From assembly GCA_033439265.1 (NCBI GenBank), contig JAVTVX010000030.1, positions 2,358,501 to 2,422,500 on the forward strand: 64,000 nt of DNA. Direction: 5' to 3'. Below, piece after piece: positions 7,585 through 48,949 of the stretch. Source of the DNA: Dillenia suffruticosa (taxonomy: Eukaryota; Streptophyta; Magnoliopsida; Dilleniales; Dilleniaceae). A program made the translations under genes and the position numbers. The stretch's first letter is position 1, and every line of letters begins with the position of its first letter. The notes under the pieces were generated by a model. It made no database searches. It was not told the DNA's origin and saw nothing but the letters and a program-made list of their open reading frames with translations.

Positions 7585-10500
7585 AAAAATGGTCTGATGG
7601 GAAGAATCTGGAAAAGAACAAATTTAATAGTGGTTAGTAAAATCTTTGATGCAAAATAGCTGGCGGAGAAGTTTGATTTCTCCCAATTGTAGTCCTTCCA
7701 ATCAATCCTTTTCTTATTAAGATCATAGATGACAACCTTTTCTTTTAAAGCATCATCTGCAAAAGGAAAAATAAAACAATATAAGAAAAGAATTTCTTAA
7801 TAAAGGAGATGTTGCACATCTCATCTAATGCTAGACGACAGATATAAAAGATCATAGTAGAAAGAACACCAAAGGGTAGCAACATTAACAAATAAATGAT
7901 AAAACAATCAAAGTTTCACACAACTGAATTAGGTCTAAATTTATCAACAAATCACAGTTCAATCAAGAAATCTGCTAGAAAGAAACTCTGCTACCCCAAA
8001 GACATAACATCAACAATTAACTCTTGAACAATCCTATGCACAGAAAAGTAATCATGGATGTCTGATTGCATTAACAAACCGGATCAAATATGTCCGTCAT
8101 CACATAGATTCTAATAACAAAGATTTCCGCATGCAAAAGCATAAATCATTCCCATAGAATCCTTTTTCACTTCTTAATTCACTAACACACTTATTTAATT
8201 ATTATTTCATTTTCATCAACCAACAATTTAGAATTTACCTTCTTAGTCTAAATACCACCGACTCCCAATCAAGCAAGTGACCATTGAAACTAAAAAAATC
8301 GAGAAATATTTTCTGTAGGGTGGTTCAAATGGTTAAATGATTCATTCCTCCTATTATTGTTGCCCTTATACATCATCTTTCTTATACCAATGCATTTACT
8401 AAGGGGAAGATTATAATGCTGAGAAATTAGCATGTGGTCTAAAAATTCTAATGGTCAAAATGAGATTTTTTTTTGGTCTCCTCTAAGTAATTTAAAAGAA
8501 AACAATTATGAATTATATAAAATAGAATTGTTAACTACGACAAAATAATTTTGACCTTAAATTCATTGTGGTCTCACTAGCAAATTTAAATGAGATGATG
8601 AGAATGTTCTCATGTTTGTTGTACTTAAACATGTTTATTTGGAAATTTTGTTAATACTAAAGATGGAAATAACACAACTATAATGTAATATATAATATTT
8701 AGTAGAGTTCTTATAACAAAATTCGCCATTGGAGGAAGCACCACGCCCTAACTTAGAAAGAGAAATCTTTACCTTGGTTTAATAAAGAGCTTATGCTAAC
8801 ATGAAAGACATCATTATTATGAAAAGATAAATAGAAATATACACTTGAATTAGATATAAGAACTTACAATTCGTACAAAATAATGTATGTCTCAACAATT
8901 AGGGACACCAAGGTGGAATCTGTATCAAAAGTAGCACATGTTTTAAACACTTCAGGATCAATAGAAAAAGTTGTTCATTGATTGTAGTACACTCTATATC
9001 AATATTATAGTGGAGCTTGAGAATGTTTTAGACAAAAAAGGAAAAAAAGGATTATGAATGAGTCAATAATATTCGTGATAGAGATATGGATGACCATTAC
9101 AAATGCAACACCAAATAATAAATTTAAGATTGTTTTTTACAAATTTTACAAGTAATTAATTGTAAATAATTTAATTTTTAATAAAAATTACAATCACAAT
9201 ATGGAGCGATACCAATAAAAATTATAAAAACATCCTAGAAGTGAGGTAATCAAAAGTTAATTTATAACAATACCTATTAATATAACATACTATAGCATGT
9301 CAAATCAAAAGTTGAGGTCATCACATGTATCACATAGTTATGTATTAAAACATCATATTTTTGGTGATCGAAAACAGCCAAAAAAGTGTTTATATAAATC
9401 ACGAAAAATAATATTTATAAATTGAAAATAAAATATTTATAAATTAAAAACAAATATTTATAAATTAAAAACAAATATTTATTGAATCAAGCAAGTAGTA
9501 ATAAAAAGAACAAATTTGGATGACACCATAAAATTGTAAATAAGATTCAATTCTGAGATCTCATAAAAAATGAGGACACTTGCGTCAAAGTCATCTTCCG
9601 TAAGACAATGAAAGAATATTTTTGGTACCTTTTGGTGCGATGCAAGATAAGATAAAATTAAAATAAATATTTCAAAAAACTATACACAAACAAAAAAAAT
9701 GTACCAGTCGTTTGATAAAAAATGCTAATTTTTTTTTGTGTAATTATTTTGTAACATGTGATGATTACTTATTACACTTTTTTTTTAATTGAATAGATTG
9801 TGAGTTTTTTAATACCAAGACGTCCTAGACAACCTCTTCCTTGGATTGTAGTCAAAATTTTTGTTCTCATAAAAGTTTAGGGATAGCTACTAGTTGTCTT
9901 CAAGAGAACCTTTGTAGTTTACTTTAATATATATCGATGTAATTTAGTTATCAAGTTATTTTGCATCAGACGTGATGAGTTTTAATTTGATTTATAAGAG
10001 TGGTGTAGATGTCACGTTTTCAACTAATTTAACCTTTGAATAAGTTTGTGATGATTCTATTTATCTATAGTTAATTGCTAATAAAACTATAATTAGATAA
10101 AAGTTTAACAGAATTCGAGATTATTTTTTGTCACATAAATTAACACTTTCCATTTTTTTGGTTCATTCAAATTGGTTGTTTTTTTTCACAAATTGTCAAA
10201 TCAAGTGCATCACAAGTCTCACAATATTGCTCATAGATCAAGTTGACGATTTTATTGGTTTAGGATACTTGAAGTTTTCAATTTTATCTCACTTTGCATC
10301 ACATCAAAAGTTACCGTGGGTATTGTTCCATTGTCTCAAGGGAGAATTGGCGAGGTGTCCTCATTTGTGGTGAGATTTCAGAAGTGAATCTTGTTTATAC
10401 TTTTATGGTATCATTCAAGTTTGTCTTCTTTTTATTATTGATTGCTTAACTTATTAAATATTTGTTTTCAATTTATAAAAGTTTTGTTTTCAATTTATAA

Positions 10501-11640
10501 ATATTACTTTTTGTGATTCATATAAATACTTGATTATTTTTTATAACTTAAAATATGAATGATTTATGTGATGACCGTAACATTTAGTTTGACACGCTAT
10601 GGTATGTTTTATTGTTGGGTATTGTTACAAATTAGTTTTTGATTATATCTTCCACTAGGATGCTTTTATAGCTTTTATTGACATTTTTCTGTGTTGTGAT
10701 TGTGGTTTTATTGAGAATTAAATTGTTGTCGATTAGTTATTTGTTAAATTTGGAGAAAAATTGTTGAATTCCTTATTTGGTATTTGCATTTGTGCGTATT
10801 GAATGGACATCTATTTCCCTTATCACATAATGTTATTGATTTATTCATAATATTTGCTTTCAATTTGTTACCAAATGTTTTTTTTTTTTTTTTCTAAAAA
10901 ATTCTTGAACCCCACTATAACATTGATATGGAGGGTATTGCAGTCAACGGGTAGCTTTTGTCTATTGATCCTAAATTGTTTAAAACAGATATTACTTGTG
11001 ACATGAGTTCCATCTTAGTGTTCTAGTTGAGCCTTAATTTTTTTGTACAAATTGTAAGTTTTTATAGTTATTTCAAGTGGATATTTGTATTTGACTTTCC
11101 ATAATAAGAATGTCTTTTTTGTTAGTAGAAACTTTTAACTAGCTTTTTTAGGACGTTTGATATCTTTTGACCTTAGATTGTTGGTATTAATTACTCTTGA
11201 TGGTATTTGTATTGTAATTGTGTTATTTTCACATTTCATTTTAAGAAAAATTGAAAATAAACATGTTTAAATATTGTTTGAATGCAACAAACTAGAAATT
11301 TCCATTATCTCATTTAAATTAGCTAGCGAGGTTACAATGAATTTAAGACCCGAAGATCATATTGTTGAAAGAATAGTAATGAATAATTCTATTTTATATA
11401 GTTCTTTTTTTTTTTTTTAATTATTTGGAGTAAGTCCAAAAAAAAAAACTCATTTCAATGCCTAGAATTTTTGAAAACACATTAATTTCATAGCATTATA
11501 ATCTTTTTTTTGGTGTTACAGAATCTAATTTCAGTAAATGTATCGGCATAAGAAAGACGGAGTATGAGCCATTTGGCAACAATAATTGGAGGTATAAGCC
11601 ATTTGGCCGCTTGAACCATCCCACAAAAAATATTACTCAA
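7585..11640. mobile_element. Giant foldback (inverted-repeat) element A
   Basis: The left arm (about 7585-9720) is repeated, reverse-complemented and diverged, in the right arm (about 10130-11640). Paired landmarks include TAACAATACCTATTAATATA (9267) with its complement near 10615; the TTTATAAATTGAAAATAAAA block (9413) with the complementary TTTTCAATTTATAAATATTA (10487); and the GTAGGGTGGTTCAAATGG end (8317) with the complement near 11615. The right arm lacks roughly the outer 0.7 kb of the left. No transposase frame is visible. The same family occurs at 17.7-21.0 kb. It could be a non-autonomous DNA transposon with very long TIRs; the superfamily is unassigned. Confidence 0.78.
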
Positions 11641-11991
11641 TAAAATTATAATAATTATTTAAAAATTATATGAAAATAAATATTTTTTTGTATAACCTTA
11701 AATTTATAAAACTTCTATCGAACCAAAAAAAAAAATTATTCTGGGTAGGCATTCGGGTTCAAACAGTCGCAGGCGAGTCCAGTAAAAAGCGGGCTGGGTT
11801 TGTGGGGCCGGGTGAGATGCAAAATTTTAATCTGCGAGATGATTATGTTTGAAGGGGTTCTCTGAATTTTAATGTTTTTTCTGGTACCATTCGACAGTGA
11901 CCAGAAGTTGATCAGATTTCAGATCTTCATTTGTTTTCTTTTTCTGAAATCTCACTTTGCATCAACAACATTGATTTTTTTGGGGGGGAAG
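11641..11991 (+). other. 5' flank of the RmlD-like pseudogene
   Basis: A GC-richer stretch (11740-11830) and a TC-rich run to 11970 sit just before the degenerate ATG at 11992, consistent with an old promoter and 5' UTR. No independent gene was recognised. Confidence 0.35.
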
Positions 11992-14900
11992 ATGGCAAAG
12001 AAAGTGTTGTAGTAGGAGGCAGTGGTTACTGAGGATAACATCTCTTACAAGGATTATCAGAGGTGGATGGGAATCCATACGATGTTGAATTCACCTGCAA
12101 TTCAACCCCACCTCAATCTCTGCTTCAAGCCTTCCCTCATTTCCTCAATTTCCATGTCTACATGAAAATTGATCAAGGTTTCTATGCCATCTCCAACACT
12201 TGTGGTCAGTTGATGTTTCAAATTCCTCTTGCCAAGTTCTTTAACTGAGGTTTCAGGGGCATTTTGAAGTGAAAGAATCTTAATTTAAGAAAATATGGTG
12301 CAATTCATGTGTGTTTTGATGATCTCAAATCTGGGTTTGGAGTGTTTGAGAGGGAAACAAATCTCTTTTATCTGCGAAGTTGATTATGTGCTAAAGTGTT
12401 TCGATACTATTTTCTTTTATGGTACACTTCAAATTCATACATTTTATATTGATTGAAGGTTTTGACAACATTTTGAAGTGAGTGCTTTTGCGTTCATGCA
12501 AATTTCTTGAAGAATGCTTCTTCTTTTTTCTGAAATTGATGTCTGAATTGGGGTGTTTGAACAATTCATTTCTGTCCACAATGTTAATTATGTGCCGGAG
12601 TATTGTGACATTGCTCTGTTTGGGGTTCTTAAAAATTCTGGCCTTCATAGTATCAGGGTGGTTCTAGGGTTACCTAGAAATATGAGTCAGAAGATAGTTT
12701 TTCTTTTTTGGTTTTTTTTTTGTTGAGGGGGGGGAGGAAGAAGTTCTGATGATGCTCATAATGTTTGGAGTTTCAGCCACGTGGTTGTCAACTATGCGGC
12801 ACTCTCTGTACCTCGTGCTTGTTAAATGGATCCAGCAGCCGCAATTCTATTAATATTCCTAAGACTCTTATGGAATGGTTGTCAAGATTTGCAGAAAGCA
12901 GCACTCCTTTGATTCATTTATCAACTGATCAAGGTTTGTCATACTGAATTCATTCCTTGCATCTTGTAAGCTTGATTATCAAATTTGAGAGCTTAGCATT
13001 TTACCAGTATTACAAGTCATATTACTTCTGAAAATAATTTGTTGAGGCTTTAGAGCTTTATCAGTTTCTCAAGTCTGAGGACTTCCAATCCTTTATTGTC
13101 TTGGATCAGGACTTAAAACCAACTCAACAAGAGGCTATTTTAACTTGACAGCAGACATAGTTACTTTTTTTTTTTTAATTTATCTCTCAATCTGTGCGTT
13201 AATCAATTAAAATGCCATTTCTATTGTCAGGTGCATGATTGATGTGCATCTCAACCTCCACATGCAGAGTCTCAAGCTAACAAAATTCTATGTCCTCGCC
13301 TAGTTGTATTTAATTTGTTCCTTGTTCGGTTCCATGCCATGTTCATTTGTTTTTGCGTATAACTCCTGGGATCATGTGACAATTTGGAGGGACAATGGGC
13401 TGTGACAAAACTAAGGGCAAATGTCCACATTTCTTCTGCTATTGATGCACCAAATTTGTTCATCCACTGAAAAGAACAATTTCATTGTTCAGAGAAATGA
13501 AGGAAAGAGTGTCATGGGAACATGAAAGAAAAGTTATGTTCAAGCAGTAAGGGCATAATGTGCAGTTCACCTGGGAAGCCGCAAGGAAATAGTCATTATA
13601 TGGGATGAGTCTCAAAACTGATGTTCAACGTGTGCATTTCTTTTTCATCTATCCTCTTGGTCATCTTTCTCCAGTTTTGCCACCAGTGGATGCTACTTGG
13701 AAGCTACAGTTAACTCCTGATTCATCCATGGGCGGTGCCAATATTGCTTAGTGGGCAGTTGACCCCACTAAAATGTGGATGACTAGAGAAATTTTGTCAA
13801 TTTTATTACATTCTTTTAGAAATTTTATTTACAATTATCCCATTAAACAATCTTTAGAAGTCAGTAATTCAATGAGAAAATCTTGTACGACAGAGCTTAA
13901 TTAGTTCTCTATGTTAAAAAATTTGTTACGTGCTTTCTAATATTTGATAAATTTGTGTAGTGCAATTATTTTGGTTCTAAGTTAGAAATTGACCCTACTG
14001 AGGCAAAACCCTGGCTGTGCTACTGGATTCGTCCTGCACTTCTCAAATGTTGCTTATGGTTTGTTCTGGTTTGAGGTTCCCATGTCAAGCTATTGATTTG
14101 ATGGGGACCCACAGCCTGATTGGCATGGCATCCAAGGTGGATATACAGTGTTGAGGTGCTAGTGTAGATACCTTTTCGAGAGCATTTAGCATTGTTTCTT
14201 CCGGTAATTCTCTGATACAGTGCTATGAACAACTAAAAACTGTGGAAAAATTGAGGAACAACCTATGAACTAGGGAAAAACAGATGAACAAACTCCCACT
14301 CCCATTCTATGTTATCGGTTTGGTTGGACAAGGTGTAATTGATATCTTTCACTCCTACCATTATATTGAATTCTCTCTTTGCTCTCTATTTTGTTTTTCA
14401 TTTTGTGATCAGCTTATCTTTCTTATATGCCTCATTGGGATAGTCATAGTCAATTCACAACACGAGAATTTTAGTGCATGAATAATTATAAAAATTCACT
14501 GGAAAAACTGTTTCGCAGCATAATCGATTGTGACTATATAGTCTCTGTCTGTTTCAGCAAATGATAAATTCCATTGTTAACAAGATCATGGTAAGTATAG
14601 GACCAAAATTGTAGAATTAATAAAATTGTCACTTTTTAGAAGCTACTTGTATTCACTAAATCAATGATTTTACTATTGGAAAAATGCCGGTGGATTGATG
14701 GTGTCCTCTCCAAAGGAGATGGGGTGGAGTTCTTCCACGATGAGTTTTGCTGCCCGGTATATGTTAAAGATGCGCTGTCATAATAGCTTTAACAAAATGA
14801 TGGATCTCATGTGTGTTACTTTTAATTCCACGTGCTTGTCTCTCAAATGATCGACCCTAAATTGTTGGAATTAAAATTCAGGTTGTTGTATATTCTATGC

Positions 14901-15878
14901 ATGCAAGATTTATGCCTTGTCAGTAATTCAAGCATTAGCTGGATATTTAATGTATTGACATGACAAAATCTGCATTATTACCACCCTTGATAAGAAACAG
15001 ACCCCAGTTTGGTTTGTGAAAATCAATATTGTGTTCATGCTCCATCATTGAGCATATCATGTTTTACTTCAAACTTCCTCTGTAGGGGTCATTTGCGTTT
15101 ACTTTCTTTGTTGGATTACCAAAAAAATCTGCAACAAGCATTGTTTAGTGGCCTTTTCCATCTTCATCACCTGCATTCATTTTGCTTAGTAAAATTTAGA
15201 CTTCGTTGGTTGCTCCACACTGCATGATTCTTGCGTTGATGTGAAAATTGCATGTCCTTCATTTATTTTCACTCTACTGGCATTGATTCTGTTTATCTCA
15301 GAGCATAAACAAGTGCAACTCCTTTTGAACATGGGTGGTCCTGATATATCGCATGCACAAATGGCTGAGGCTGTGCACGTGAGGGGATACAACATGTCTC
15401 TTATCAAACAAATATATGCATCATCGGTACATCTTCATTCCTGATATATTTCTCCTAAAAAGTTGTTTAGATCCAAATGAACAGAAAATGCAGCTAATAC
15501 TCATAAAAATGAGAATAATGAAATTCAGTGTAGAAATGCATGCTTGAAGCTTGAAACCAAAGGAAAACCTAAACTTTTGTACTATTTATATACACAGAAT
15601 TATTGCTTAGGGCTTGAATTTGCCTAAATTGTTCGCTGCTTAGAGGAGATTTCATTTTACTTTATTTCCAAGCAAAAGATTTCAACCTTGTCTAATTCAT
15701 CAATAGATAGATGTATTTTCCTGCCTTGATCTTGCTTGATTGTACTATTGTAATTTTTCAGGTTAATTGTGGAGTTATGTCCCCGGTTGACATAGCAGTG
15801 GATATCTCAAAATTAATTCAGATGCTCATATCTCCCATTCACTTTATAGATAGTGTCAGATTAACTCCCGGTGCGTAA
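11992..15878 (+). pseudogene. RmlD/MAT2B-like NAD(P)-binding reductase pseudogene
   Basis: Exon remnants resemble the plant dTDP-4-dehydrorhamnose-reductase-like (RmlD substrate-binding, MAT2B-like) Rossmann family. Exon 1 (11992-12206) reads VVVGGSGY-stop-G-stop-HLLQGLSE, in which the Leu and Gln codons of the expected GSGYLGQHLL are TGA and TAA, then VDGNPYDVEFT. Exon 2 (about 12777-12932) reads VVVNYAALSVPRAC-stop-MDP, then in another frame INIPKTLMEWLSRF and LIHLSTDQ. Later exons are about 14688-14790 (WIDGVLSKGDGVEFFHDEF, with a stop in IIALTK-stop-WIS), 15302-15426 (LLNMGGPDISHAQMAEA) and 15762-15878 (MSPVDIAVDISKLIQ to a stop). The exon with the family's YxxxK-type region was not found. 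Several stops and shifts show it is dead. Confidence 0.88.
14815..14893 (+). mobile_element. RTE-like LINE 3'-end remnant
   Basis: GTGCTTGTCTCTCAAATGAT followed by CGACCCTAAATTGTTGG and an AAATTCAGGTTGTTG end matches the 3' UTR of the LINE copies at 39.4 kb and 43.0 kb. It lies in an intron of the RmlD-like pseudogene. Confidence 0.6.
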
Positions 15879-16328
15879 AATGGGATTGGTGTTCCAAGAA
15901 GTGGATTGTTTCCCTTTTGATTGCTATTTCATGTGTTGAGAAAATAAGCTTGTCATACTGGATCATTGTGTGTGGTATTCTCTGAAGCTAAAGAATCCTA
16001 GGTCATGATTCAACGGCTTTCTTGTGTACTTTTGAAATTAAAAAAAAAAAAATCTGGTAATATAGAGTTTGGAAATTCAGGCATTGGGTTGTCAAAATAT
16101 GAACTTCACGCATTTTTCTGGAAAAATGACTAATTAAGATATATTATTATGCACATATATGGCTTTTAAAATAGGCAATGCTATTATTAAGCGTGAAGTT
16201 ACCTCTAGAATTTTATTATTATTATTATTATTTGGTTCTCTTCTTTTCCAAATCTGGAGGGGATAAAGCCCAAAAGACTGAACAAGTGCTTAAAGCAGCA
16301 AGGGCTACATAAGGGTTAAACACCCCTG

Positions 16329-16517
16329 ATGAAGGTACCTCTAGATATTATGCCCTTTAAAACTGATTCACTCCTTGTGGTTGCCGCCTCCATTGTTCTT
16401 GGTGTTCAAAATCTTGCTGTTTGGCCAAAGAAATTTTTACATATGTTATGGACTTGCTTTCTTGTTGCTAATCTGGAGTCAATGTTCATGAGGTATACAT
16501 ATTTATTCAAATTATGA
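16329..16517 (+). pseudogene. Short frame conserved between duplicated segments, unknown
   Basis: Encodes 62 codons starting MKVPLDIMPFK and including VVAASIVLGVQNLAVWPK, a hydrophobic stretch. The inverted copy, read on the minus strand from 46380, begins MKLPLDAMPFK and has VVAASIVLGVQNLVVWPK, so reading frame and amino acids are well kept over about 40 codons. It could be a remnant exon of a small membrane protein. I do not recognise the family. The region beyond about codon 42 is not conserved as protein. Confidence 0.45.
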
Positions 16518-16521
16518 CCTT

Positions 16522-16703
16522 ACTTTTTTTTTTCAGCGTTGGTATCCGAGTTTTACTCGATTAATCTGATTCAACCACTATAGGACCCATTTTGGGATTA
16601 GTTTTTCTAAAATCTTTTTTCGTCATTTCCGGGTTCAAACTTGAGAGCTATTGTTAAGAGGATAAAATGTCCTTGACCACTCAACCAAAAAGAGTTTGGT
16701 ATC
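16522..16703 (-). mobile_element. tRNA-derived SINE, minus orientation
   Basis: On the minus strand it has an A-box-like GGTTGAGTGGTCAAGGA, a B-box-like GTTTGAACCC, and a 3' end with TTAATCGAGTAAAACTCGGA before an A-rich tail. An ATGACCTT duplication flanks it (16514-16521 and 16704-16711). The duplicated locus near 45.98 kb has the empty site. Confidence 0.82.
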
Positions 16704-17116
16704 ATGACCTTCCTCTACATATATATTCACTTATAGTTTTTTGTTTCTTTGGTTGGCCGCCATAATTGACTCTGCTAAGACCTTAATTCCAATTCTAAAA
16801 TGTTGAGATAGATGAGATCTACAATATAAGAAAATTATTGATATAAAAATAATTTTAATATTTTTATGAAGAAATTTTGGTTATATTTACAAAATTTAAT
16901 ATTTTTATGCAGAATTATTTATTTTTATTAGAAATAAAACAAATTCACCATATCTAAATCAAGAATACACAAATGGGTCTTAGGTGCTCAACATTTTTAT
17001 GAGTATGTTATAAAGGTTGAGAGAACCCTTACTCTAGAATATGTACAAGAGATTTGATGGAAGCAACTAAAATAGCTTTGTCCTTTTTACCAGTTACTTA
17101 GAACCCTTCTTTTCTG

Positions 17117-17217: not shown

Positions 17218-17702
17218 TAGACCTCCGGGGTTTTCTTTTGTTTTTTTTTTCATTTTTGTTGGTCTTGGGAGGAGGGGATAACATCTTGGGGGAGGGGGAC
17301 ATGGTGTTATGAATCCTTATAATTTGCATCTGCATCAATTAATAAAAGTAGACTCAGGTTCATTTCTTGGACAACCAGCCAAGTGATAATTCTTAACTTC
17401 AACATCAATGTTGATTTGGCGTTGTTCATATTCACTGGTTTTATCTTCTCAGTCTACTCATGTAATGGCTCTCACTTAATTTAGTGCTCTATTTAAATAA
17501 TTTCATAATAATTAATGCTTGAAAATGTAATTTTATTTTAGAGCTAAAATAAATCATACTAACATGTTCACTGAATTGTATAAAGGCATAGAATTAGTAC
17601 ATTTGTACGAGTTCATTTTTGTTTTTAAAAGACTAATATATTAAAAAAAAGTATAATAAGAAAACATGCACAAAATAAAATATAAAAACTATTACAAGTG
17701 CA
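17218..17702. other. AT-rich intergenic DNA
   Basis: T-, G- and A-rich homopolymer-bearing sequence between the short SINE and foldback element B. No gene or named repeat is recognised. Confidence 0.35.
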
Positions 17703-20700
17703 ATTATTATAAGAGCTATTGTTTCCATGGGACTAGGAGCACCCCCATTAAGCCAATATTAAGTCGCATTAACAATGACAAAAATATGAAAAAAAACTTG
17801 AAAAAGAATAAATTCAACGGTGATTAATAAAATCTTTGGTATAAAATAACTAATATATAAGTTTAATCACTCACAATTGTATTCCTTTCAACCAATTCTT
17901 TTCATTCTAAGATCATAAACAATATTTGCAAAAGAAGAAATCATAAAAACTTTTAAAATATTTTCTATGGGGTGATTTAAGTGATCAAATAATTCCTATA
18001 TCATATTATTGTTGCCCTTTTGACATCTGTTTTTCTTATGTCAATGCACTTTATTGAAATGAGATCATACAACAGCACAGAAAAAATTATACCCGTAAGA
18101 AATTAATACGTGCTTTAAGAATCTTAAGAGCTAAAATGAATTTTTTTCCCCCAAGTTTTCTCCAAACAATTTAAAAGAAAACAAGGAGGAACTATATAAA
18201 ATATAATTGCTCACTACTATTCCTTCGACAAGATAATTTTATGACCTTAAATTCATTGTGATTTCACAAGCAAATTTAAATGAGATGATGGGAAAGTTCT
18301 CAACTTTGCTGTATTTAAACAAAAGTTAAACATATTTATTTAGAAATTTTTTTAAAAGTAGTGGTGAAAATACCACAATTGTAATGCAATATATGATATC
18401 TAATAGAGTTCTCACAACACAAATCACGAGAAACGACATGCTCTAACTGAAAAAAAAAAAAATCAACCTTTACCTACAACATAATAATTAGTATATATCA
18501 ACAATATAGGATAATTTCAGAAGATATCACATCTTAAGGGAGCTAGTTACGAGTTTATACTAGCAGAAAAGACATTATTATTGTGGAAAGGTAAATAAAA
18601 AGTATCAATGGATTGGTTATAGAACTTACAGTTCTTACAATAGAAATGTACGGCTCAATAACTAGGGATATCAAAAAGTAACACCTATTTTAAACATTTC
18701 AGAATCAATGGGTAAAAATTACCCATTGACTGCAAGACCTCCATATTAATGCTACAATAGGTTTGAGAATGTTTTTAGACAAAAAAGAAAAAAACATTTT
18801 TGTAACAAATTAAAAAGAAAAATTATGAATAAATCAATAACATACATAACAAGGGAAATTAGTGACTATTCAATATGTACAAACACAATACAAAATAATG
18901 AGTTCAAGATCTTTTTTTTTTCAAATTTTACAAATCATTAATTGACGACAATTTAATTTTCAATAAAAAGCACAATCATAACATAAAAGAATGTTAATAA
19001 AAACAATAAAAATATCCTAGAAGTAAATGTAATCAAAAATTAATTTCTAACAATATCCATCAATATAACATACTATGGCGTGTTAAACCAAAGGTTGAGG
19101 TTATCATATAAATCATATAGTTATGTATTAAAATATCATATTTTGAGTGATCGAAAACAACCAAATAAGAGTACTTATATGATTTACGAAAAATAATATT
19201 TATAAATTGAAAATAAAATATTTAATAAGTTAAACAAACAATAATAAAAAGAAAACAAATCTAGATGACACCATAGGAACGTAAATAAAATTCGGCTATG
19301 AGAACTCATAAAAAATGAGAACACCTGCCAAAGCCTTCTTTCGTGAGACAATGGGAGAATATCTCAATATCTTTTGATGCAATACAAACCAACATAAAAT
19401 TGAATTATCTAAATGACTTAAACCAACAAAACTGTTAGTTTGACATACAAGCAATCCTGTGAGATTCGTGATGCACCAGTTTGATTGATCAGATGTGTGA
19501 GACACTTGCCAAATAGTGAAGAAATCAGATGTATGAGAGAAAGATCGTACCTGAATAACGTTGTGAAACAACAACCAACTGATGAAGAATTAAAATTTGA
19601 TATGCTAGTAAGAGATTTCTTTTTTGGGAAAACTGCTATTGTGTGTTTGAATTTCTCTTGATTCAGGTCTTTTCTCTTTTTTTTATCGTACTTATATTCA
19701 TTCTCACTTTACTCGACTAATGACACGCTTAGTAATAGCAAAAATTATTATTTTTGTCTAACCTTTTGTACTTGATAGCAATTTCATTAGAGCATTACCT
19801 AACGAAATAATTAAAATTTGTCAATTCCATGCCAGCCAAAAACATTTAGACATGGATAATGGTACAGTAGTATCCTGATTCAATCTAAGTCATAGTATTA
19901 CTCTTGAGTAAATTCTCTCTCATACTTCAATATATTTTCTAGCTTATTCATGACACGGCTCAGATTGAAATAGGAAAGAGAACTTAACCAAAAGTAATGT
20001 CACGGTTTAGATTCAATTGGAGAACTATTACCCATGCCTAAATTTCTTTGGTTGTCAAAGGCATGAAATTGAGAAATTCTAATTCCTTTGTTAGGTAATG
20101 CTCTATATAATATTAGAGATTCCACTAAAGGAAATTAATATCGGATACAAAACACAGATGAAAATGATAATTTTTGTTATTGCTAAGCGTACCATTTGCT
20201 GGGTGAAAAATGAATACTTGTACAATCAAAAAGGAAACGAAGAAAAGATTTGAATAAATAGAGGTTTAGACACAGAGTAGCAATTTTCACGAAAAGGAAA
20301 TCTTCCTACAAAATCAATCAAACCCTAATTCTTCAATAATTGGTTGTTATTTCACAACGTTATTCAAATACAATCTCAAGTGTCTTTCACATTTGATCAA
20401 TCAAACCCTAATTCTTCAATAATTGGTTGTCGAAGGAATGGTGGTCAGCAATTCTATTTCATATAGTTTCTACTTATTTTTCTTTAAATTATTTGAAAAT
20501 ATCAAGAAAAAAAAAACTCATTTTGTCCCTTAAAATTCTTAGAACACATGCTAATTTTTTATTGGTATAATCTCTCATTTGCTACTATAGCACCTCATTT
20601 TAGTAAGGTGCATTGGCATAAGGAAGACAAATATTCAAAAGACAACAATAATACAACGTATAATTTATTTAACCACTTGAATCACCCCGCAAAAAATATT

Positions 20701-20976
20701 TCTTAATTTTTTATAATTTCTTTTTTTGCAGATATTACTTTAAAGACAAAATCGTTGTCTATAATCTTAACACAAAAGGGATTGGTTAGAAAAATTACAA
20801 TTGTGAATAACCAAACTTATCCATTAACTATTTTGCACCAAAGATTTTATTAATTACCATTAAATTTATTCTTTTCCAGATTTTTCCCATATTTATATCA
20901 TTGTCAATGAGAGTTAATACTAACCTAATGAGGAGTGCTCCTAGTCACATGAAAACAATATAGCCCTTATAATAAT
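17703..20976. mobile_element. Giant foldback (inverted-repeat) element B
   Basis: The left end (ATTATTATAAGAGCTATTG) and the reverse complement of the right end (ATTATTATAAGGGCTATATT) match, followed by the shared ACTAGGAGCAC. The symmetry continues inward to a centre near 19.94 kb. The left arm is about 2.2 kb; the right arm is shorter because a segment equivalent to about 18230-19430 is missing. The outer arm is homologous to element A (shared TTTTAAAGAAAACA-type and TAATAAAATCTTTGG-type blocks). The inner arms carry sequence like the 5' end of the gene at 48.9-52.5 kb. No transposase is visible and target duplications were not resolved. A transcript through it would form a very long hairpin. 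Confidence 0.8.
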
Positions 20977-21204
20977 GCCGCCAGCTGAGTAGGACCAAAC
21001 CTGATAAGAAGAGAGAGAGAGTCCCATGTATGCTACTAAGAACCTCGCATTTACAATTATACCAAAAAGTTTAACAAAATAAAAAATATAACTTAAACTG
21101 GGAGGTCCCAAAAGTTTTCAGATATTTTACATTTGTTCATATATTATTCACTTTTCTTCTTCTTTTTTTTCCCTTTATGAATAATTAAATAGGTTTTGAC
21201 AAGT

Positions 21205-21405: not shown

Positions 21406-23562
21406 AAAGATTACCTGTAACCTTTATTCTTTTCTTTATGTTATGTTTGATACGCAAAATTCAATTCGGATATATGATATTATTATTGAGGGATAAAAAT
21501 ATTATCAAATAGATACCAAAAGCATGCCCATTTTTTAAGAGCTTAAAAACATTATCCATCCATAATAAAATAACAAACTAAATACTGAGTTTAATCTTAG
21601 AGAGAGGGAAAATCAAATCTAATTCTTTTAATGAGAGAAAATTAAAACTAATATGTTTAATGAAAAAACAACGAATTAAATTATTTTTTAGAGAAAAATT
21701 AATTTACATAGTTTTAGGGGAAAAATTAAAATTAATGTATTTAAGGCAATCATGGTCTACCGCCCCAACACTCATGGGACTGTCTCAGATGATCTCTCTG
21801 TCGGGTCTTCTTTGGCCACTTTTGTTCATTGATTGCTAGTTTTGGATTGTAAATTCGCCTCAGAATCAACCTTTTGAGCTCGATTATGTAAACTTTGATT
21901 TTGACAGAATTTTGTTCTAATCTATATGAATGCAATACAAAAATTGAAGTCGAAAGCATGGTTATGTGTTTGTGTCTTTTTTTTTTTCATTTTTCTATTT
22001 TCTTTTTTAACGGTTGATATGAAAATATGTGCTTTTGTGATTAGAATGCGAAAATTTTCATGAGTTTACAAGTCTTCCATTGTGGTGATGTTAAATCATT
22101 CAAAGTTATGTTTACAAATGCTATCATAGATAATTTTTTATACTAAATTTTTATAAATATTATCATAGTTGATTTTTAATTGATACGATCATATGATCTC
22201 ACATGGGCAATATATGCATGATGATTTTTGGCTTTCATTATATAGTTATTGCATCATTCAATTGAAACTTTGTTGTTCATGTTGAAATATGGTTGTTTAG
22301 ATCTTTACTCGTTTGTATGGTTTGGACACATGAACAGATTGATTATAATTGAAATCAAATCTATCTCCTTTAATGTTGTCTTTCCATGGTTTTTCTAACT
22401 TCCTAGTAATATATTTCATAATAGTGTCTATTAGATTTAGGGTATTGATGTTTCTTGATTGTCCAAGGGCTATTAGATTTCTTTTAACAACTTGAATTTT
22501 ATCTCTTGGGTTGATTTAATAATGGTTGTAAGTTTACTGAATTTTACCTTTTGATATTAACTATAAGACAATTGAAAGACACCATAATGTCTTTTAAAAC
22601 CCGTCAAATTTATATGCATTGTAATTGAAATATGTATGACAATAATTTATCATGTTGATTTTCATTATTTAATAATATTTCTATAACTAATAATTTGAGA
22701 AGTAGAATAGAAAATACTGCACCACACTTCCTCTTTACTAGTTAGGATCTTTCAATGACAACAAAGATGGTTGTTGTTTTGGAAACACTTGAATAGCTTT
22801 CAGGAAACCCAGTTAATCTATTATGTATAATCTTTGTTAACAAAACCCAATAGATGTATAGGATTTACAGAAGGTTATGGTGTTCAATTATAGAGACAGA
22901 GCTCATTTGAAATTTTCTTGTGTGGCATTACAGTTTTACTCAAATGTAAAATTGTGCAGCATTTGTGGGTGAGATTCGTAAGACACTTAAATTTTGATGA
23001 ATTTGGTTTCCTTAATTCTTCTACCCATTTGACTTCTTGATGCAGACTAGCAACATAGTGAGTTTGAAATTGAACTCTTGAAGTGTAAAGAAAGCAGAGG
23101 GTTGTGAGAAAGGGTAAGAAGTGGGAAGCAAGGGAATGCTATGGACATGAATTTTCTATAATTTGAATTTGAGAGGATTTATGTCCACATAGGACAAAAG
23201 AATGTTTGGATTGCAAGAGTGGGTGAATGGCCTCTAAAGGAATGGTCCTCATTTTAGCTTTTCTCAGTTAATTGTGAATAAAATGAATTTTGTGGATACA
23301 AAGATTAAAGTTCAAAAGTAATAAAATCTCCAAGATTTTTTCAAATACGTCAATTTATGGCTACTCATAGGTTGGAAAAACTTTCATTTCAAACTATTGA
23401 GAGTGGGTTTTTGAAAGCAGAGAAGATTTGAAATTAATTATTATTGAGATTTTAGAATAACATTTTAGTTAATAAGACTATTATTTCACAAAATGGTTTG
23501 AATGTATTTGATCGAGGAAAACCCAAAGCACTGGATGGGTAACATTCTCCTAATTAATCTCA
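21406..23562. other. AT-rich intergenic DNA, no recognised gene
   Basis: About 2.1 kb with only short open frames, none with recognisable similarity and none with plausible splice-linked coding exons. I see no named repeat apart from generic AT-rich stretches. Confidence 0.4.
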
Positions 23563-24533
23563 TTTGCCTAGTGTTTTAGAGAGAGAAAGGGAGAGAGATG
23601 AAAATCGAACCCCGAAAAAGATCCATCGATTGGCTTGAAGCGGTCCAAAGCAGCAGATCAGTGAGAATCAGAGATCGGACGGAAGATTGCAAGCTCACTG
23701 CAGATCTAAATTGCAAGAATCATACCCAGAAATCTCACATAATTTCTGGCCACATCTGCAACCAATAAAAAAGAAAAAAGAAAAAAGAAACAAGAGATCA
23801 AAACAATGTGCGAAGCGAAATTGAAGTGCGTGAGAAATTTAGGGTTTTGAAATGAGAAGAGGACTAACCTGGGAGTCTGGAGAGAGTAGTTTTGCCTAGT
23901 GTTTTAGAGAGAGAAAGGGAGAGAGATGAAAATCGAACCCCGAAAAAGATCCATCGATTGGCTTGAAGCGGTCCAAAGCAGCAGATCAGTGAGAATCAGA
24001 GATCGGACGGAAGATTGCAAGCTCACTGCAGATCTAAATTGCAAGAATCATACCCAGAAATCTCACATAATTTCTGGCCACATCTGCAACCAAAAAAAAA
24101 GAAAAAAGAAAAAAGAAACAAGAGATCAAAACAATGTGCGAAGCGAAATTGAAGTGCGTGAGAAATTTAGGGTTTTGAAATGAGAAGAGGACTAACCTGG
24201 GAGTCTGGAGAGAGTAGTTTTGCCTAGTGTTTTAGAGAGAGAAAGGGAGAGAGATGAAAATCGAACCCCGAAAAAGATCCATCGATTGGCTTGAAGCGGT
24301 CCAAAGCAGCAGATCAGTGAGAATCAGAGATCGGACGGAAGATTGCAAGCTCACTGCAGATCTAAATTGCAAGAATCATACCCAGAAATCTCACATAATT
24401 TCTGGCCACATCTGCAACCAAAAAAAGAGAAAAAAGAAAAAAGAAACAAGAGATCAAAACAATGTGCGAAGCGAAATTGAAGTGCGTGAGAAATTTAGGG
24501 TTTTGAAATGAGAAGAGGACTAACCTTGGGTCT
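23563..24533. repeat. 328-bp unit in three tandem copies
   Basis: Units start with TTTGCCTAGTGTTTTAGAGA at 23563, 23891 and 24219 (exact period 328). They are nearly identical except in an A/G-rich tract, so the amplification is recent. On the minus strand each unit looks like a gene 5' end: a CT-rich leader, CAG|GTTAGTCC as donor, an AAAACCCTAAATTTC stretch, and TTGGTTGCAG as acceptor before ATGTGGCCAG. On the plus strand copies 2 and 3 have an identical 85-codon frame that looks fortuitous. The third unit joins SDR-promoter-like sequence at about 24534. Confidence 0.9.
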
Positions 24534-25170
24534 TCAAAGAGTTTGCTATTGCAATCAGAATGCATTATTCTACCGGTGTTTCCTTAACTGAGTGTGCGTA
24601 TGTGTGTGGCTTCTGCTCTACAAAAGTCTGCCCGCCCAAAATTTATAGAGGCTAGACAACAACCTGAGCATGTAATAGCCACAACTCTTTAGGAAAATCC
24701 TTCTTTTTTTTTTTTGGGTATCTTCTGATATATATATATATATATTTACATATTCAATCACTTCATTAAAACAAAAGGAAAAAGAATATATCAAAATTAG
24801 GATTATAATGGTAACCAAATTAAAATATTTAAGATTTAATAAGAAAATTAAAAGCTTTTAAAGTAAATTGAAAAATCCATGAAAAGGGTAGAAATTCATA
24901 TATTATTATTCTTAATATTTTTTAAAAAAAAAATTAATATCAATTTTTCATATAATACATAAAACAAATTTAAAGATTTTTCTTTATGTTACGACAAGAG
25001 CTTTTCCTCTTCGTTGGCTTGTGTGAATGGTCCTGAATTCTTGACTTAGGGGTATTGAGAATTATTAGGGCAGCTCACCCCCCCCCCCAGTAAGTTTAGG
25101 GTTTAGTGTAGGCAACTTAAACGGGTAATCCAAGTCTCATTTTCTTAAATTTTTTTCTCATTTTGTTCAT
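24534..25170 (-). promoter_or_regulatory. Orphan copy of the SDR gene 5' flank
   Basis: On the minus strand this matches the region upstream of the SDR gene at 57752 (57010-57700). Shared landmarks are the CATTCTGATTGCAATAGCAA-type piece, the CACACACATACGC stretch, a GCCTCTATAAATTTTGGGCG-like TATA region, and CTCTTGTCGTAACATAAAG further upstream. No SDR coding exon follows; the 328-bp tandem units are joined instead. Confidence 0.75.
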
Positions 25171-26040
25171 TTTTGTTTCCATCTTTGGTACTTTTACTCA
25201 TTTTGGCTTTTACTATTCAACACCCTATTCGCTTTCTTCCTCTTTGAGCTGCTTCAGACTTACGAACAACTCAACTACGAAAATATACCATGAATGTATT
25301 ATTTTTTTTGTTAAAATTATCGGTATTTAAAATTATATTCTAACTATTTTGATGACACAGTTCCCTAACGTAATTTTTTTTATTTTTAAATTTTAAATTT
25401 AAAATTTAATTAAAAAATTTAATACTCTATTTTATTTGATTAACCGTCCATTGATATTATAAATGTACGTAATAGCCTAATATAAAAAACAATAACCAAA
25501 AATATAAAGACGGGTATTAATTCAGGATATAAATTGTACATTTTTATTTATATATAAATAACTTTAGCATAGGGTGGGGGTAGGTTTCATTCGGTTTTGA
25601 GCCAGTGAGCAAGTGTCAGATGGTGTCATGAGAGTTCAAACTAGGGAACAATGGAAGGCCTGAATCATGTTGCCGTATTTAGTTTGATGACAATAAAGCA
25701 CCATAATCAATGTCATAAAACTGCAGGCAGCAGAGCAGAGATGCCATAATTGCAGGAGGGCCCAAAGCATTAATCCTCCTTCGTCTTGGTTCCACCACAA
25801 GTCAATTTAATTACTAAACCTATCCGTTCACAGACTCAAAGGGCCAAGTGTGGTACAACATGAAGTTGCAAAGCAAAGCTACATCATGAGTTGTCAGAGA
25901 ATCTAGAGAATTATAGTCGGTCATACCATCTAAAAAAGATTATTAAAAGCATAAGATTCTGAGGGAAAAAAAAGGGAGATAGGGAGGGAGAGAACAACAC
26001 CAAAATATCAAACCTGCCAAACTTGGTTTTGACAAAATTT
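25171..26040. other. AT-rich intergenic DNA
   Basis: Contains A/T homopolymer runs and no convincing gene. A tRNA-like GAGAGTTCAAACTAGG near 25630 could be a weak SINE remnant. Confidence 0.35.
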
Positions 26041-26044
26041 GCTA

Positions 26045-26240
26045 ACAGTAGATGGGTCAGTCACATCAAACTGATGAAAAATCAAATAATCAGAGAGACC
26101 AAATTCTTTCAATTTCTCAAGAGCTCCAACCCCCTCCCCCCAAATCTCGGGCAGTCAGTACCACAGTGACTCCATTTGTGGCCAGTTGGTTACATATCTC
26201 AAAGCCAATCTCCTTGTTTGCTCCTGTCACAACTGCATAC
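26045..26240 (-). pseudogene. SDR exon 2 remnant
   Basis: On the minus strand, directly after a CT-repeat and AG acceptor, it reads [20 protein letters not shown], then [12 protein letters not shown]. This is the TGxxxGxG cofactor-binding region of the SDR genes downstream, with the first Gly of the motif changed to Glu. After ARD a frameshift and stops break the frame, although the DNA can still be followed to the DVTDPST region near 26045. No other exons are seen. Confidence 0.85.
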
Positions 26241-26279
26241 CTGAGAGAGAGAGAGAGTAATGTGGTTTGAAGATAAAGT

Positions 26280-27115
26280 TGGAAAATATAATTTTGATGA
26301 TACTATCTGGGAAGAATTGAGGCACCCCATTAACAACTAATTCACTTCTATTGTTGACTTTAAAATTTCACAAGATGACAGTTTAATTTACTCTTCCATG
26401 GCTCAAATTTAAGTTAATTTGCTAATCATGCTGAAATAATAGTCGCACATGCCAGAAATAATCTCCATTTGTTAATTGGAATAATGATCTTGTGAATGTA
26501 TTATGTCAAATTTCAGGCACAATTATTTCCACCAAAATTGGCATAAGGCGCGCGGGAGGCAAAATCACAAGCATTTGGTCCCATGATCTGAGAGAATTTG
26601 AGACTACACACGTTTGTACGATGAGCCATAAGAAACTTTATAAAATTTTATGAGCAAATGACTAAGAAAATGGTAATGTCATTTAATTTTGTTAATTTTA
26701 ATAATTATAATTTTTTTTCAATTTTGTTATTAAGAAAAACAAGACAAATAGGTATCAATTCTATTATTTGTTGTCAATAAAAATACACTGCAAGAAACAT
26801 TTTCACTAAAAATATGGTACTTCATTTTATGAAAAGTACAAGCTAGAAGGTCCACCAGTCGGTCGAAGTGCTGATCTGATGGCACATTCACCCCCAAAGA
26901 TTACAAAAATAAAAACGAAAAAAAAAATGAAATGAAATGAGTTCAATGAATATACGGCATGAATAAGCCAGGAAACACATTGAAATACGACCGAGAACTT
27001 ACCCAACACTCCCACCACAGCTTATATTGCATCGGGGAGCTTTTCTTATTTTATTCTTAACGAGTCTCGAACCCGAATCTATTATAAGGGTCGGAGGATT
27101 GATGTCACTTGAATG
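26280..27115. other. Intergenic DNA between SDR remnants
   Basis: The first 60 bases still match the SDR intron 1 region. The rest is AT-rich, with a CGAGTCTCGAACCCGAATC stretch at 27061 that looks like part of a SINE B-box. No gene is seen. Confidence 0.35.
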
Positions 27116-27124
27116 CTCACCGGC

Positions 27125-27420
27125 ATTTTGCATCGGGGAGCTGCTGTATCATTACCCCGAAATGTCTTTGGCTATCAAAGGTATGAAGTTGAGACATTCC
27201 AATTCCTTTGTTAGAAAGTGCTCTATGTAAAATCAGAGATCTATTAAATGAAACCACTAACTGGTAAAAAAAAAAGAAAAAAATAATGTTGGCTAAGCGT
27301 GTCATGAAGTGGGAATGAATATCGAAGAAAAAGGAAGAAAGCAGAAAACTTGAATCATAGAGCAGCGGTGTCGTTCGATATGTGGAATATATGGGAAAGA
27401 GACGAAGCAGAAGCAAGTGT
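27125..27420 (+). repeat. Fragment of the foldback element B inner arm
   Basis: CTTTGGCTATCAAAGGTATG, then AATTCCTTTGTTAG, GCTCTATGTAAAATCAGAGA and GGCTAAGCGTGTC follow the same order as in 20050-20200 of element B (CTTTGGTTGTCAAAGGCATG onward). The similarity fades at both ends, so it is a dispersed fragment. Confidence 0.6.
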
Positions 27421-27587
27421 GCAAGTGTAAAACCTTTTTGAGAGAAAAAGAGAAAGAGGCTTTTCGGACATTGGGGTAGATAGGAGGATGACTCGTCCGA
27501 CTCAGGTATCTGACCAACCCAGGAATTAACAGGGACAGGGCGAGGCAGATCGGTACTAAGAACCTTCACCTACTGTATTAAGAACCT

Positions 27588-27996
27588 TTTGATTTTGTGT
27601 AGATACTAGAGAGAGAGAGAGAGAGAGGCAATTTGGACGTTAGAGTCGGACGGGGCGAGGCAGGCTAGCACTGAGAACATTCGCCTATAGTATTGACAAC
27701 CTTTTGATTTAGTGTAGAGACCAGAGAGAGAGAGAGAGAGAGAGGCTATTTGGACATGAGAGTCGAAAGGAGAGGAGGACGACTTGTCCGACTAGGTTTC
27801 TAACCAAACATAGAACTAATAAGGACGGGCGAAGCGGGCCGGTACTGAGAACCTTCGCCTACGGTACTGAGAACCTTTTGATTTTGTGTAGAGACTAGAG
27901 AGAGAGAGACTAGTTGAACATTAGAGTCGAATGGGGCTAGGCGGGCCGGTACTGAGAACCTTTGTCTACCGTATTGACAACCTTTTAATTTTGTGT

Positions 27997-28031
<35 letters not shown>

Positions 28032-28060
28032 GCTATTTGGACATTAGAGTCATAAGAGAG
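27588..28060. repeat. GA-rich minisatellite, four irregular units
   Basis: The phrase TTTTGATTTTGTGTAGA followed by a (GA)n tract recurs at about 27588, 27702, 27866 and 27984. Between these are variants of GGGGCGAGGCGGGCCGGTAC and TGAGAACCTTCGCCTA. Unit lengths are about 114, 164 and 118 bases. Confidence 0.8.
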
Positions 28061-28083
28061 GACGAAGGTTTATGTGCATGTGC

Positions 28084-28190
28084 ATGTGTGTGTGTGTATT
28101 CTACTAAAATATCAACCAATCAAATATTTTACAATTTTAATAAAAATATACATGTATATGTGCATGTGTGTGTGTGTGTGTGTATTCTAC
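28084..28190. repeat. TG-rich microsatellite pair
   Basis: Two (TG)n runs at 28085-28098 and about 28161-28183, each preceded by ATGTGCATG. The open frames across this area follow the repeat and are not taken as genes. Confidence 0.8.
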
Positions 28191-28194
28191 TTTA

Positions 28195-28458
28195 GTCTTG
28201 TGTTACATCAAGCCGATTCAACCCCCTCCTTCATATCTGGTGGTCAGTACCACAATGACTCCATTTGTGGCCAATTGTTTAATATCTCCGATCCAATCCC
28301 TTTGTTTGCCCGTCACAACCGCATACTTGAGAGAGAGAGAGAGAGAGAGAGAGTAATGTGGTTTGAAGTTAAAGTTGGAAAATATAATTTTGATGACACT
28401 ATCAGGGAAGAATTGAAGTACCCCATTAACAAATGACATACCTCTGTGTTGCATCCAT
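28195..28458 (-). pseudogene. SDR exons 1-2 remnant with upstream flank
   Basis: On the minus strand exon 1 (28458-28442) encodes MDATQR with a donor, as in the intact genes (MDATKR, MDTTKR). After a (CT)n tract, exon 2 (from about 28326) reads YAVVTG, then a missing codon shifts the frame (expected [11 protein letters not shown]). It recovers as [15 protein letters not shown] and stops. The acceptor has lost its first exon G. Upstream DNA to about 29050 also matches the SDR promoter at 57.2-57.75 kb. Confidence 0.85.
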
Positions 28459-30816: not shown

Positions 30817-33800
30817 AGAGACAGAGAGACATTAATAATTTGCCAATAAAATATTTAACAAGAAATTCCCTACTTTTGACATTTGCATGAGTTCTTTGCG
30901 TCCAATTTCCCCATGCCCTTCCGCCAGTTCTTCAGCAACGGCAGCTTGGGCAACAGCTGCTCCAACCTCTGCCGTAACATCCCGAATCCTGCAACAACAA
31001 TAACATTTTCGGTAATTGCTGCAATTTGCTTGAGCTTTTAGTTACAAAGTCTTGACTAGTTGTACAAATTTGATAGGTCCAAATACCATATCAAAAACTA
31101 CAACTCCAGAACCATTTCAATGGGCATTGTTAAGGGCAGGTTAGGGACAGGCTACAATAGCTACTTTGGAACACTGCAGTTGATGGCACTGATCAATTTA
31201 GGTTACAACAGTCAACAGTTAATGCTAACAAATTGATATGCCAATTTAGAAGTGGCCATAATCTCCATAAAAACAATTTAAGCTTCCATACCAATGGATT
31301 TCTGCAGTAGATAAGCAATAAGTTTGCCTCCAGATAGGCCTATAGTAAATTCCTGGAATATTCAAATAAATGAAATGCAGGGAAAAATATATATATTATA
31401 TGTATATATACAAATTTACCTTGAAATAGACGGAAACAGGATGCCATTTTGAGTTTCTTCATCTGTCATATAAGATGCAAGGCTGTCCAGGTAAAACATC
31501 AAGTCAGACAAGTTTTTTGCAGGAAAAGCAAATAACACCATAATTGAACAAGATTTATCATCTTTCAGAAGCAAGAACATGCATTGGAAAGAAGAGAATA
31601 AATACAATCGAGGGAACCCTATTGTCATTTATACTTAACAATGAAAAGACTTCAGTGATGGTGGAAGAAAAAGGTTGAGAATGTATTCATTTTCTTGGTG
31701 TGCAATAATAGTAACTCAACAATGGAGGAGGTTGTTTTAGGGCTATAGAATGACACTTGGGGGCCATTGAGGGTCATGACCCAGAGTTAAGGTGTTGCCA
31801 CACACCATAGCAAAGGGTGCAGGGATGTAAGGCCTAGTCACCATAAGATGTGAGGGGACACGGTTGTTAGTAACCAACTACTGAGGTTTGTGCATTAAGT
31901 GGTGTTGTTATGATGTGATGAGTGATACAGTTATATAAGATGTAGTTAGACAATTTGTAGATTATTGACTAATAGATTTTGCTAAATTATGTGCAAGGAT
32001 ATAATTCAATTCTGGAATGGTTATGATTCGTGATACTTCAAAGGGATTTGGTGTCACAATCCCCCAACCTATAATCCAATTCCGGAATGGTTACGGTTAG
32101 TGATACTTCAAAGGGATTTTGTGTCACAGCATGTTAGGTATTTTCTACTACGACCCAAAAGCCTCACAATTTTGTTCCAAAAAGCGTCTCAATGTGTAGC
32201 CTTATATAGCCGAGCACCAACCAATGAGGGACAGAACACATTCACCCTTTCCCTTTTATACCCTTGCCCACACCAGCACCCTATCCCATGCCGCTCAACC
32301 AATGCTGAATGTTACATTTGGTATGTGTAAGGATGATTATGGGCATAATGGGCTATGAGGATGATTTATTGCAAGATTTGGAACGAATGACAGTAAAGCT
32401 ATCTATGTTTGTAAGCACATTTGGCTGAGCCACATTAAATTCGGTTTCCACATTTGTAGCCTTTTATACCCTTGCCCTTTTATAGCCAAGTAAAAGTGAA
32501 GCCTCTTTCTTGCTAACCAACATCTAGGAAAAACCTTACCCTTTTAAACCCTTGCCCTTTTACTTGCCCACACCAGCACCCTATCCCACACTGCTCAACC
32601 AATGCTGAATGTTACATATGGTATGTGTAAGAATGATTATGGGCATAATTTATTGTAAGATCTGGAATGAATGATAGTAGAGCTATCTATGTATGTAATC
32701 ACATTTGGCTGAGAAACATTAAATTTGGTGCCCCAAATTTATGTTGTTTTGAAATTATTTCCACTATGCTTTATATATATATTTGTGGTAGACCAATTTT
32801 TTTACCACAACCAAGAAAAAAGCATGCACGCAAGGGAAAAAAAAAATTATCAATAAAATACACCAATCTTGATGTGCTTTGGCCAAACATCCCTACATCC
32901 AGAGATGACACTACTAGATTATCAAATCATCCTAATCCTCACAATGAAATCACCTTCACAACCCAGAGCCCATTACACTTGTTACTGTCATGTGTCAATA
33001 TTTTCAACATTCACAAATTGAACCATCCCCCAAAACCCACATTACACCTACCAAGACACAATCACATAGATTTATAGAGCACATAGCTTGCCTAACAAGA
33101 TGGCAGATTTTTTCCCAGCACAACTTACAGGAAAAACCATGGCTTCTATACTGCAACCCCCACAAACTAAACCAACCTGCAAACTACATTTCCTTCTTTC
33201 AAGCAAATCTAATTGTTTCCTAATTTTAACCAGATCCTACAACTTAATTAGATTATGTCACTTTCCGAACACTGAACAGTTACCACTAATGCCACTTTCC
33301 ACATAGACCCAACTGATAGATAAGGATTGTTAGTATCTAATGTGATGAGATCATCAAGATTGCAAGGAATTCACGAGACCCAACTCAAGTCCCAGTTGGG
33401 CCGGTGACAAAGGCCCGAGTTAAAAGATTCAAAGAAGCACTGAATAACTTAATTCAAGGAACTTTACAACAAGAAATTGGAGCCCAAATAAATATAGAAC
33501 CAAAAGGGGCCTTAATTATGCTTATACAAGCCCAGTTGGAAGAATAAAAGGCCCAAAACTATCCAAGACCAAGAGAGGACGAAAATGAAGAAAAATAGTA
33601 GCAAGACTTGGTCAAAATAGTTTGATTTATTTAGTTTCCTAATTTTTATTTTTTTGTAACTTATGTTTAGTTTCCTAATTCTTTATTGTTTAGAGAGTTT
33701 CTAAATTTTTAGTTGCCAATTATGTTTTTACCTTTAGGCTATAAATAGGCCATTATACATTGTGTAAAACAACACTTTGGAGAGAATTAATAAAATTGTG

Positions 33801-46904: not shown

Positions 46905-47026
46905 ACTAAAGAAGAAACAAAATCGAAACAGGTATACCTGGAACGTCCTTTCCTGTTTAATTACTCTTAATCAGTAGGCACTTCTGAGTACTTCAAGACA
47001 GTTAACTAAAATTGAGGATAAGGTGT

Positions 47027-48900: not shown

Positions 48901-48949
48901 GGAATCAAATTCAATGTCCAAAATCTCAACTTTGGTGAAATAAGTAAAG

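Follow-up and report, generated by a model that had tools for sequence, protein, structure and literature searches.

The window, which is the whole stretch of 64,000 nucleotides of Dillenia suffruticosa DNA analysed here (C30:2358501-2422500), contains a gene for a DUF7642 membrane protein, referred to as gene X, together with degenerate or fragmentary copies of an aspartic-protease (AP) gene, most of which make up the arms of two inverted-repeat elements, A and B. A 100-kb stretch of C19 was compared with the window, and C19 positions are given as relative (rel) positions, i.e. position minus 20270000. The features on which the analysis is based are as follows, with rc denoting the reverse complement.

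7597-11641, no single strand: element A, inverted degenerate AP copies, the left on the minus strand and the right on the plus strand with exon 3 at 9833-10038 (sequence matches)
17478-19484, minus: left outer arm of element B, a degenerate AP gene from exon 4 to the 3' end (four pieces against C19 rel 38510-42654, 67-76%)
19485-19508, minus: filler separating AP exon 4 from the gene X piece and similar to the adjacent piece of gene X intron (junction sequences)
19509-19695, minus: left copy of gene X exon 1 with intact donor (rc 19549-19550) and intron 1 start (BLAST limit 19671-19678; outer limit approximate)
19720-19950, plus: left copy of AP exon 1 (ATG 19720) and AP intron 1 start, the frame being stopped after 13 codons (approximate centre at about 19950)
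19951-20195, minus: right copy of AP exon 1 (ATG rc 20195-20193), its frame broken by stops (alignment to C19 AP exon 1)
20228-20376, plus: right copy of gene X exon 1, which no longer has the donor (BLAST match confined to 20250-20366; outer boundary approximate)
20377-20430, plus: filler, the inverse of 19479-19508 followed by a 35-bp exact repeat (sequence match)
20427-20976, plus: right outer arm of element B, consisting of just the AP 3' part, with TTGT at the join by eye (17703-18231 in inverse, 73.9%)
27140-27305, minus: lone AP exon 1 copy with open frame, ATG rc 27305-27303 (AP exon 1 alignment)
48900-52600, minus: gene X, DUF7642 membrane protein (PF24649), first coding exon at about 50857-51180
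52428-52592, minus: source segment, comprising exon 1 of gene X, predicted to be non-coding (about 52466-52592), the donor GT at rc 52464-52465 and the start of intron 1 (BLASTN to element B; C19 homeolog alignment)

Gene X carries a DUF7642 match at 50169-50645 on the minus strand (Pfam 2e-11, above the cut-off) and a further one at 50686-51213 on the same strand (7e-4, under Pfam's cut-off); a literature search on this domain found no papers. Relatives of the first coding exon were identified by genome search on C19 (87% at the amino acid level), C35 (58%) and C13 (62%), and in 8 kb from each of the C35 and C13 loci the search for gene X 5' similarity returned a single 21-bp match (E 0.002). 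The C19 relative lies in a homeologous region, as window 30.2-52.7 kb is largely collinear with C19 rel 0.6-32.2 kb, and the 5' segment of gene X (window 52450-52678) aligns to rel 31955-32204 at 72.5%. Gene X is predicted to be spliced at the exon 1 donor.

The initial annotation proposed that both arms of element B hold the 5' UTR exon and donor of gene X, and that such a hairpin might either silence the gene through small RNAs or be a captured fragment. BLASTN within the window aligned 19509-19671 with 52428-52587 at 73.7% over 167 columns (E 2e-21), and 20250-20366 with 52582-52467 in reverse orientation at 74.0% (E about 1e-12). Smith-Waterman scores to the gene X segment were 416 for the left arm and 320 for the right, with shuffle maxima of 138 and 124, and 0 of 300 dinucleotide shuffles reached the real score for either arm. 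The C19 homeolog of the segment likewise matches B left at 19535-19678 (74.7%, E 4e-18) and B right at 20269-20375 (71.6%, E 8e-8). The exon similarity in both arms is real and extends past the T-rich runs, and the left arm spans the predicted exon, the donor and approximately 40 bp of intron 1. The donor was confirmed in the left arm only, where CAG/GT at rc 19551-19553 and 19549-19550 corresponds to rc 52466-52468 and 52464-52465 of gene X, whereas the right copy has lost it and reads CAA/AT. Because the left arm holds intron sequence beyond the donor, we conclude that the gene X piece was captured at the DNA level.

Element A, and element B outside the gene X pieces and filler, derive from a second gene. 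The arms of both elements match C19 rel 38.5-42.7 kb, where an AP gene lies upstream of the gene X homeolog. This C19 copy has open exons with a DTGS motif and TAXi_N and TAXi_C domains, and its exon 4 frame has two PDB relatives, conglutin gamma and a xylanase inhibitor. Among the AP copies examined it alone shows exons 1-4 in order, its 3' exons being partly traced; it is less broken than the copy in element B, adjoins the gene X duplicate in the homeologous region, and has a 3' flank (rel 38218-38449) that matches the left flank beyond the window (L035, 70%), in a stretch that is repeated within C19. In element B, 19484-19246 aligns with C19 AP exon 4 (70%, E 1e-22), 20027-20177 with exon 1 (72.5%, E 4e-14), and 20427-20703 with rel 40015-39746 (69.8%), and the AP last exon was located at 20734-20810. 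With cut-offs of 1e-3 for BLASTN and 0.01 for tblastn, AP exon 2 was not matched anywhere in the window, while exon 3 was found only in element A; element B thus lacks a complete open AP exon set, and both of its inner exon 1 copies contain stops. No gene X match was reported in element A. The lone exon 1 copy at 27 kb was considered as a gene X promoter and rejected, being AP exon 1 on the minus strand with no significant gene X exon alongside: beyond the AP part, 60 of 300 shuffles scored as well against gene X of the window and 27 of 300 against its C19 homeolog, neither being significant. Against B left and B right, the corresponding counts for this copy were 2 and 23 of 300.

From left to right, element B therefore reads AP exon 4 to 3' end (minus), filler, gene X exon 1 (minus) and AP exon 1 (plus) up to the centre at about 19950, and from there AP exon 1 (minus), gene X exon 1 (plus), filler with the 35-bp repeat, and the AP 3' part (plus). 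The arms form an inverted repeat of 67% identity over 892 gapped columns (19542-20376). The central part of element B, 19479-20430, is an inverted duplication of a composite unit in which the start of AP intron 1 and AP exon 1 stand head-to-head with gene X exon 1 at a distance of ~25-55 bp, the left copy adding the donor and the start of gene X intron 1. The two units join tail-to-tail within AP intron 1, and on either side of them lie AP gene bodies, inverted and degenerate, of which the left starts at exon 4 and the right further downstream. Both halves have the same join of gene X exon 1 to AP exon 1, which must therefore predate the inverted duplication of the unit. At the left outer join, on the border of AP intron 3 and exon 4, TCAAAC is common, by eye, to the AP intron 3 end and the gene X exon; TTGT is common, also by eye, at the right outer join, and these short identities would fit end joining or template switching. 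At the right join, 20396-20430 is a 35-bp exon piece 100% identical to 20313-20347 in direct repeat, which may represent a recent templated insertion, the flanking arms having diverged by a quarter.

The long inverted arms of the neighbouring elements A and B and their gene-fragment content would be expected of a foldback or Pack-MULE-like transposon that had captured the 5' end of gene X. Pack-MULEs and other gene-capturing transposons move gene pieces as DNA, introns included, and the gene pieces of element B were likewise moved with introns; however, its arms are made of exonic and intronic sequence from a protein-coding gene, one that stands in order in the homeologous region, and no target-site duplication was recognized by eye at 17703/20976. 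Copies are few: a genome search with the left arm gave at least 11 matches from 8 scored candidates, six in the window, four on C19 beside the gene X homeolog and one at C30:21.396 Mb, all at AP loci. The last is a second AP relative in which exon 4 and a later exon were seen and exons 1-3 were not found. Dispersed copies with common termini were not found, the matches being confined to the window, the C19 syntenic region and this AP-related locus. The search of the 596-Mb genome with the palindrome gave at least 5 matches from 3 scored candidates, all in the window, and did not recover the two first exons, of gene X and AP, on C19, although pairwise BLAST detected them there; all of these counts are therefore minimum values, and there may be further copies. 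A transposon identity for elements A and B was accordingly rejected, their arms being AP gene pieces, and capture by such an element is extremely improbable. The earlier suggestion of a captured fragment thus survives in that a piece of gene X was taken up as DNA, but apparently by local rearrangement rather than a mobile element, and fused with AP exon 1.

The order of parts on the minus strand also admits a chimeric transcript, in which the left gene X exon 1 and its donor (CAG/GTACGA) would drive the AP body at 17478-19484 by splicing and replace AP exon 1, as that strand carries the exon, the donor and then AP sequence starting in the exon 4 acceptor region. This is very improbable: the AP exons 2 and 3 that would follow were not found in element B, the exon 4 border reads TGG where C19 has CAG, the exon 4 piece is at 33% amino acid identity, and upstream of the exon no gene X sequence is recognizable.

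Divergence was used to place these events in time. For the gene X segment, K2P distances from the gene in the window are 0.30 for B left and 0.34 for B right, close to the distance between the two homeologs (0.30 over all shared sites, or 0.38 over 124 gapless columns); distances to the C19 homeolog are larger (0.35 and 0.49), and B left and B right differ from each other by 0.27-0.28. Judged by this divergence from gene X, which is about that between the homeologous copies of the segment, the fragment in element B is old. Among seven homeolog blocks, divergence is 0.28 for the one at the gene X 5' end and 0.11-0.17 for the six others, which implies either that the capture dates from around or before the homeolog split, or that the segment evolves fast. 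A split of the two B copies from the two gene X copies has 70% bootstrap support, with informative columns divided 5, 5 and 2 among the three splits, which favours no single order of events. The four AP arms of elements A and B, at 0.30-0.45 among themselves and 0.37-0.41 from the C19 AP gene, group as a clade (100%) apart from the AP copies of C19 and of the second C30 locus, the branching order within it being weak.

Decay of these sequences has been extensive. Of 424 aligned sites, 26% differ between the inner arms of element B. Changes of the C>T and G>A type affect 16-30% of inferred ancestral sites in each of the four AP arms, compared with 3-7% for the reverse changes. GC content of the arms is 0.26-0.28 versus 0.35 in the C19 AP gene. 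Observed/expected values for CAG plus CTG are 0.46 in element A, 0.58 in the left arm of B, 0.44 in its right arm (3 sites) and 0.83 in the inner palindrome (13 sites). Beyond A and B, the values of 33 AT-rich 2-kb windows that overlap one another range over 0.52-1.49, so that no clear depletion is seen in the inner palindrome. The C>T/G>A excess, low GC content and scarce CAG/CTG of the outer arms would suit long methylation, with some other AT-rich windows coming close.

Taken together, we consider 19479-20430 to be debris of local rearrangement (probability roughly three in four), and a selected function for the palindrome is improbable. At or before the homeolog split, an inversion or inverted duplication would have set the 5' ends of AP and gene X head-to-head; the fused unit would then have been duplicated in inverse, by end joining or template switching as the TCAAAC and TTGT joins suggest, among AP pseudogene copies that were already inverted, with the 35-bp templated repeat added later and the palindrome decaying since the duplication. 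Read-through from outside could still yield an RNA hairpin with arms of about 450 bp. Support for the rearrangement comes from the AP identity and exon order on C19, the few arm copies, the common exon 1 join in both halves, the K2P distances of the gene X segment and of the AP arms, the stops in the inner AP exon 1 copies, the C>T/G>A decay and the neutral pairing test of the inner arms described below. Counted against it are folding far better than that of shuffles, the survival of the left-copy donor, informative columns that favour no single event order or ancestral arrangement, the larger distances to the C19 homeolog of gene X, the smaller ones of the six other homeolog blocks, and a strand asymmetry of the outer arms.

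The folding in particular would suit a small-RNA or proto-microRNA hairpin, in which a read-through foldback is cut by Dicer-like enzymes and gene X, perhaps also AP genes, is repressed in trans. Folding of 19479-20430 gave -349.9 and -355.9 kcal/mol on the two strands (z -18.4 and -29.5), and none of 20 shuffles matched this on either strand; the palindrome also has the extended similarity to a candidate target, gene X, that marks inverted-duplication MIRNA or siRNA loci. A minus-strand 21-mer of the right copy (20311-20331) has one mismatch to the gene X exon, and guide/site pairs at up to 4 mismatches number 24 (plus) and 31 (minus), counted without a shuffle control; 21-mers with 1-3 mismatches exist, as homology alone would produce, again without such a control. 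Pseudogene-derived inverted duplications are moreover a published route to microRNA genes (PMC3237417). Conversely, the gene X-type starts in element B both face outward, so that their transcripts would hold one arm each and not the hairpin; a promoter outside the element could still read through both arms. Inner-arm transitions are 37 of G.U type versus 41 of A.C type (p 0.73), with no pairing-preserving bias, and Rfam over 17400-21100, searched to an E of 1, gave 3 matches, each of them far short of its gathering score and none within 19479-20430, a match to a described microRNA family being no requirement for a new locus. Engineered hairpins with many G.U pairs or evenly spaced mismatches leave RNA interference working, as summarized in PMC9263138, so divergence by itself would not exclude hairpin activity. 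Nevertheless the outward starts, the 26% inner-arm difference and the neutral pairing test speak against a maintained silencer, and we regard the small-RNA hairpin as unlikely. That a single rearrangement-born hairpin with two unrelated gene 5' ends could act as a bivalent proto-silencer, co-repressing gene X and AP relatives, is very improbable.

In the outer arms, G.U-type versus A.C-type transitions (plus transcript) number 131 versus 75 in element A and 28 versus 68 in B, in all four quarters of each. Such G.U-biased decay was rejected as proof of hairpin selection: it also occurs between the left arms of A and B, which are non-pairing partners (151:102), and is absent in the inner palindrome. 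It was not seen between the right arm of A and the left arm of B. Past transcription of A rightward and B leftward could have produced the asymmetry.

The locus can be compared with known systems. In the Ws strain of Arabidopsis, PAI1-PAI4 is a tail-to-tail repeat of two genes read through from a heterologous promoter upstream (PMC3203196). Element B resembles this arrangement in that sequence of an endogenous gene is duplicated in inverse and linked to a promoter from elsewhere, and in that read-through RNA would be palindromic; it differs in having divergent, fragmentary arms, in combining two genes in one unit, and in foreign 5' ends that lie inside and point outward. The inverted-duplication (Allen) model of MIRNA origin (PMC3237417) shares a foldback similar to a candidate target and adjacent inverted pseudogene pieces; in element B, however, the similarity is to a predicted 5' UTR exon and a second, unrelated gene fills the inner hairpin. 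Literature on head-to-head, inverted-repeat and pseudogene arrangements contained nothing closer among the matches listed. Element B is thus ordinary in kind and unusual in its two-gene make-up. An apparent gene-capturing transposon here becomes a syntenically traceable palindrome of inverted gene fragments made by local rearrangement, which under the inverted-duplication model is raw material for new plant small-RNA genes, and the less rearranged homeologous region in the same genome would allow any effect on the parent gene to be assessed.

Other features lie elsewhere in the window. The C19 gene region at rel 19.5-25.9 kb is found inverted at 11749-16996, with a remnant in the collinear place at 45647-47273, a pattern that suggests segmental inverted duplication and later loss. 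An inverted match in two pieces at 22799-23325 corresponds to the spacer upstream of the gene X homeolog (C19 rel 33576-32994), and pieces of the spacer between gene X and AP may have moved with the rest. Genes for short-chain dehydrogenases, and fragments of them, lie at 25884-28432 and 54411-63998, with inverted relatives on both sides of the window, and a retrotransposon gag fragment (PF03732) lies on the minus strand at 1985-2503. Three tandem ~328 bp copies at 23563-24542 are 98-99% identical and are probably much younger than their surroundings.
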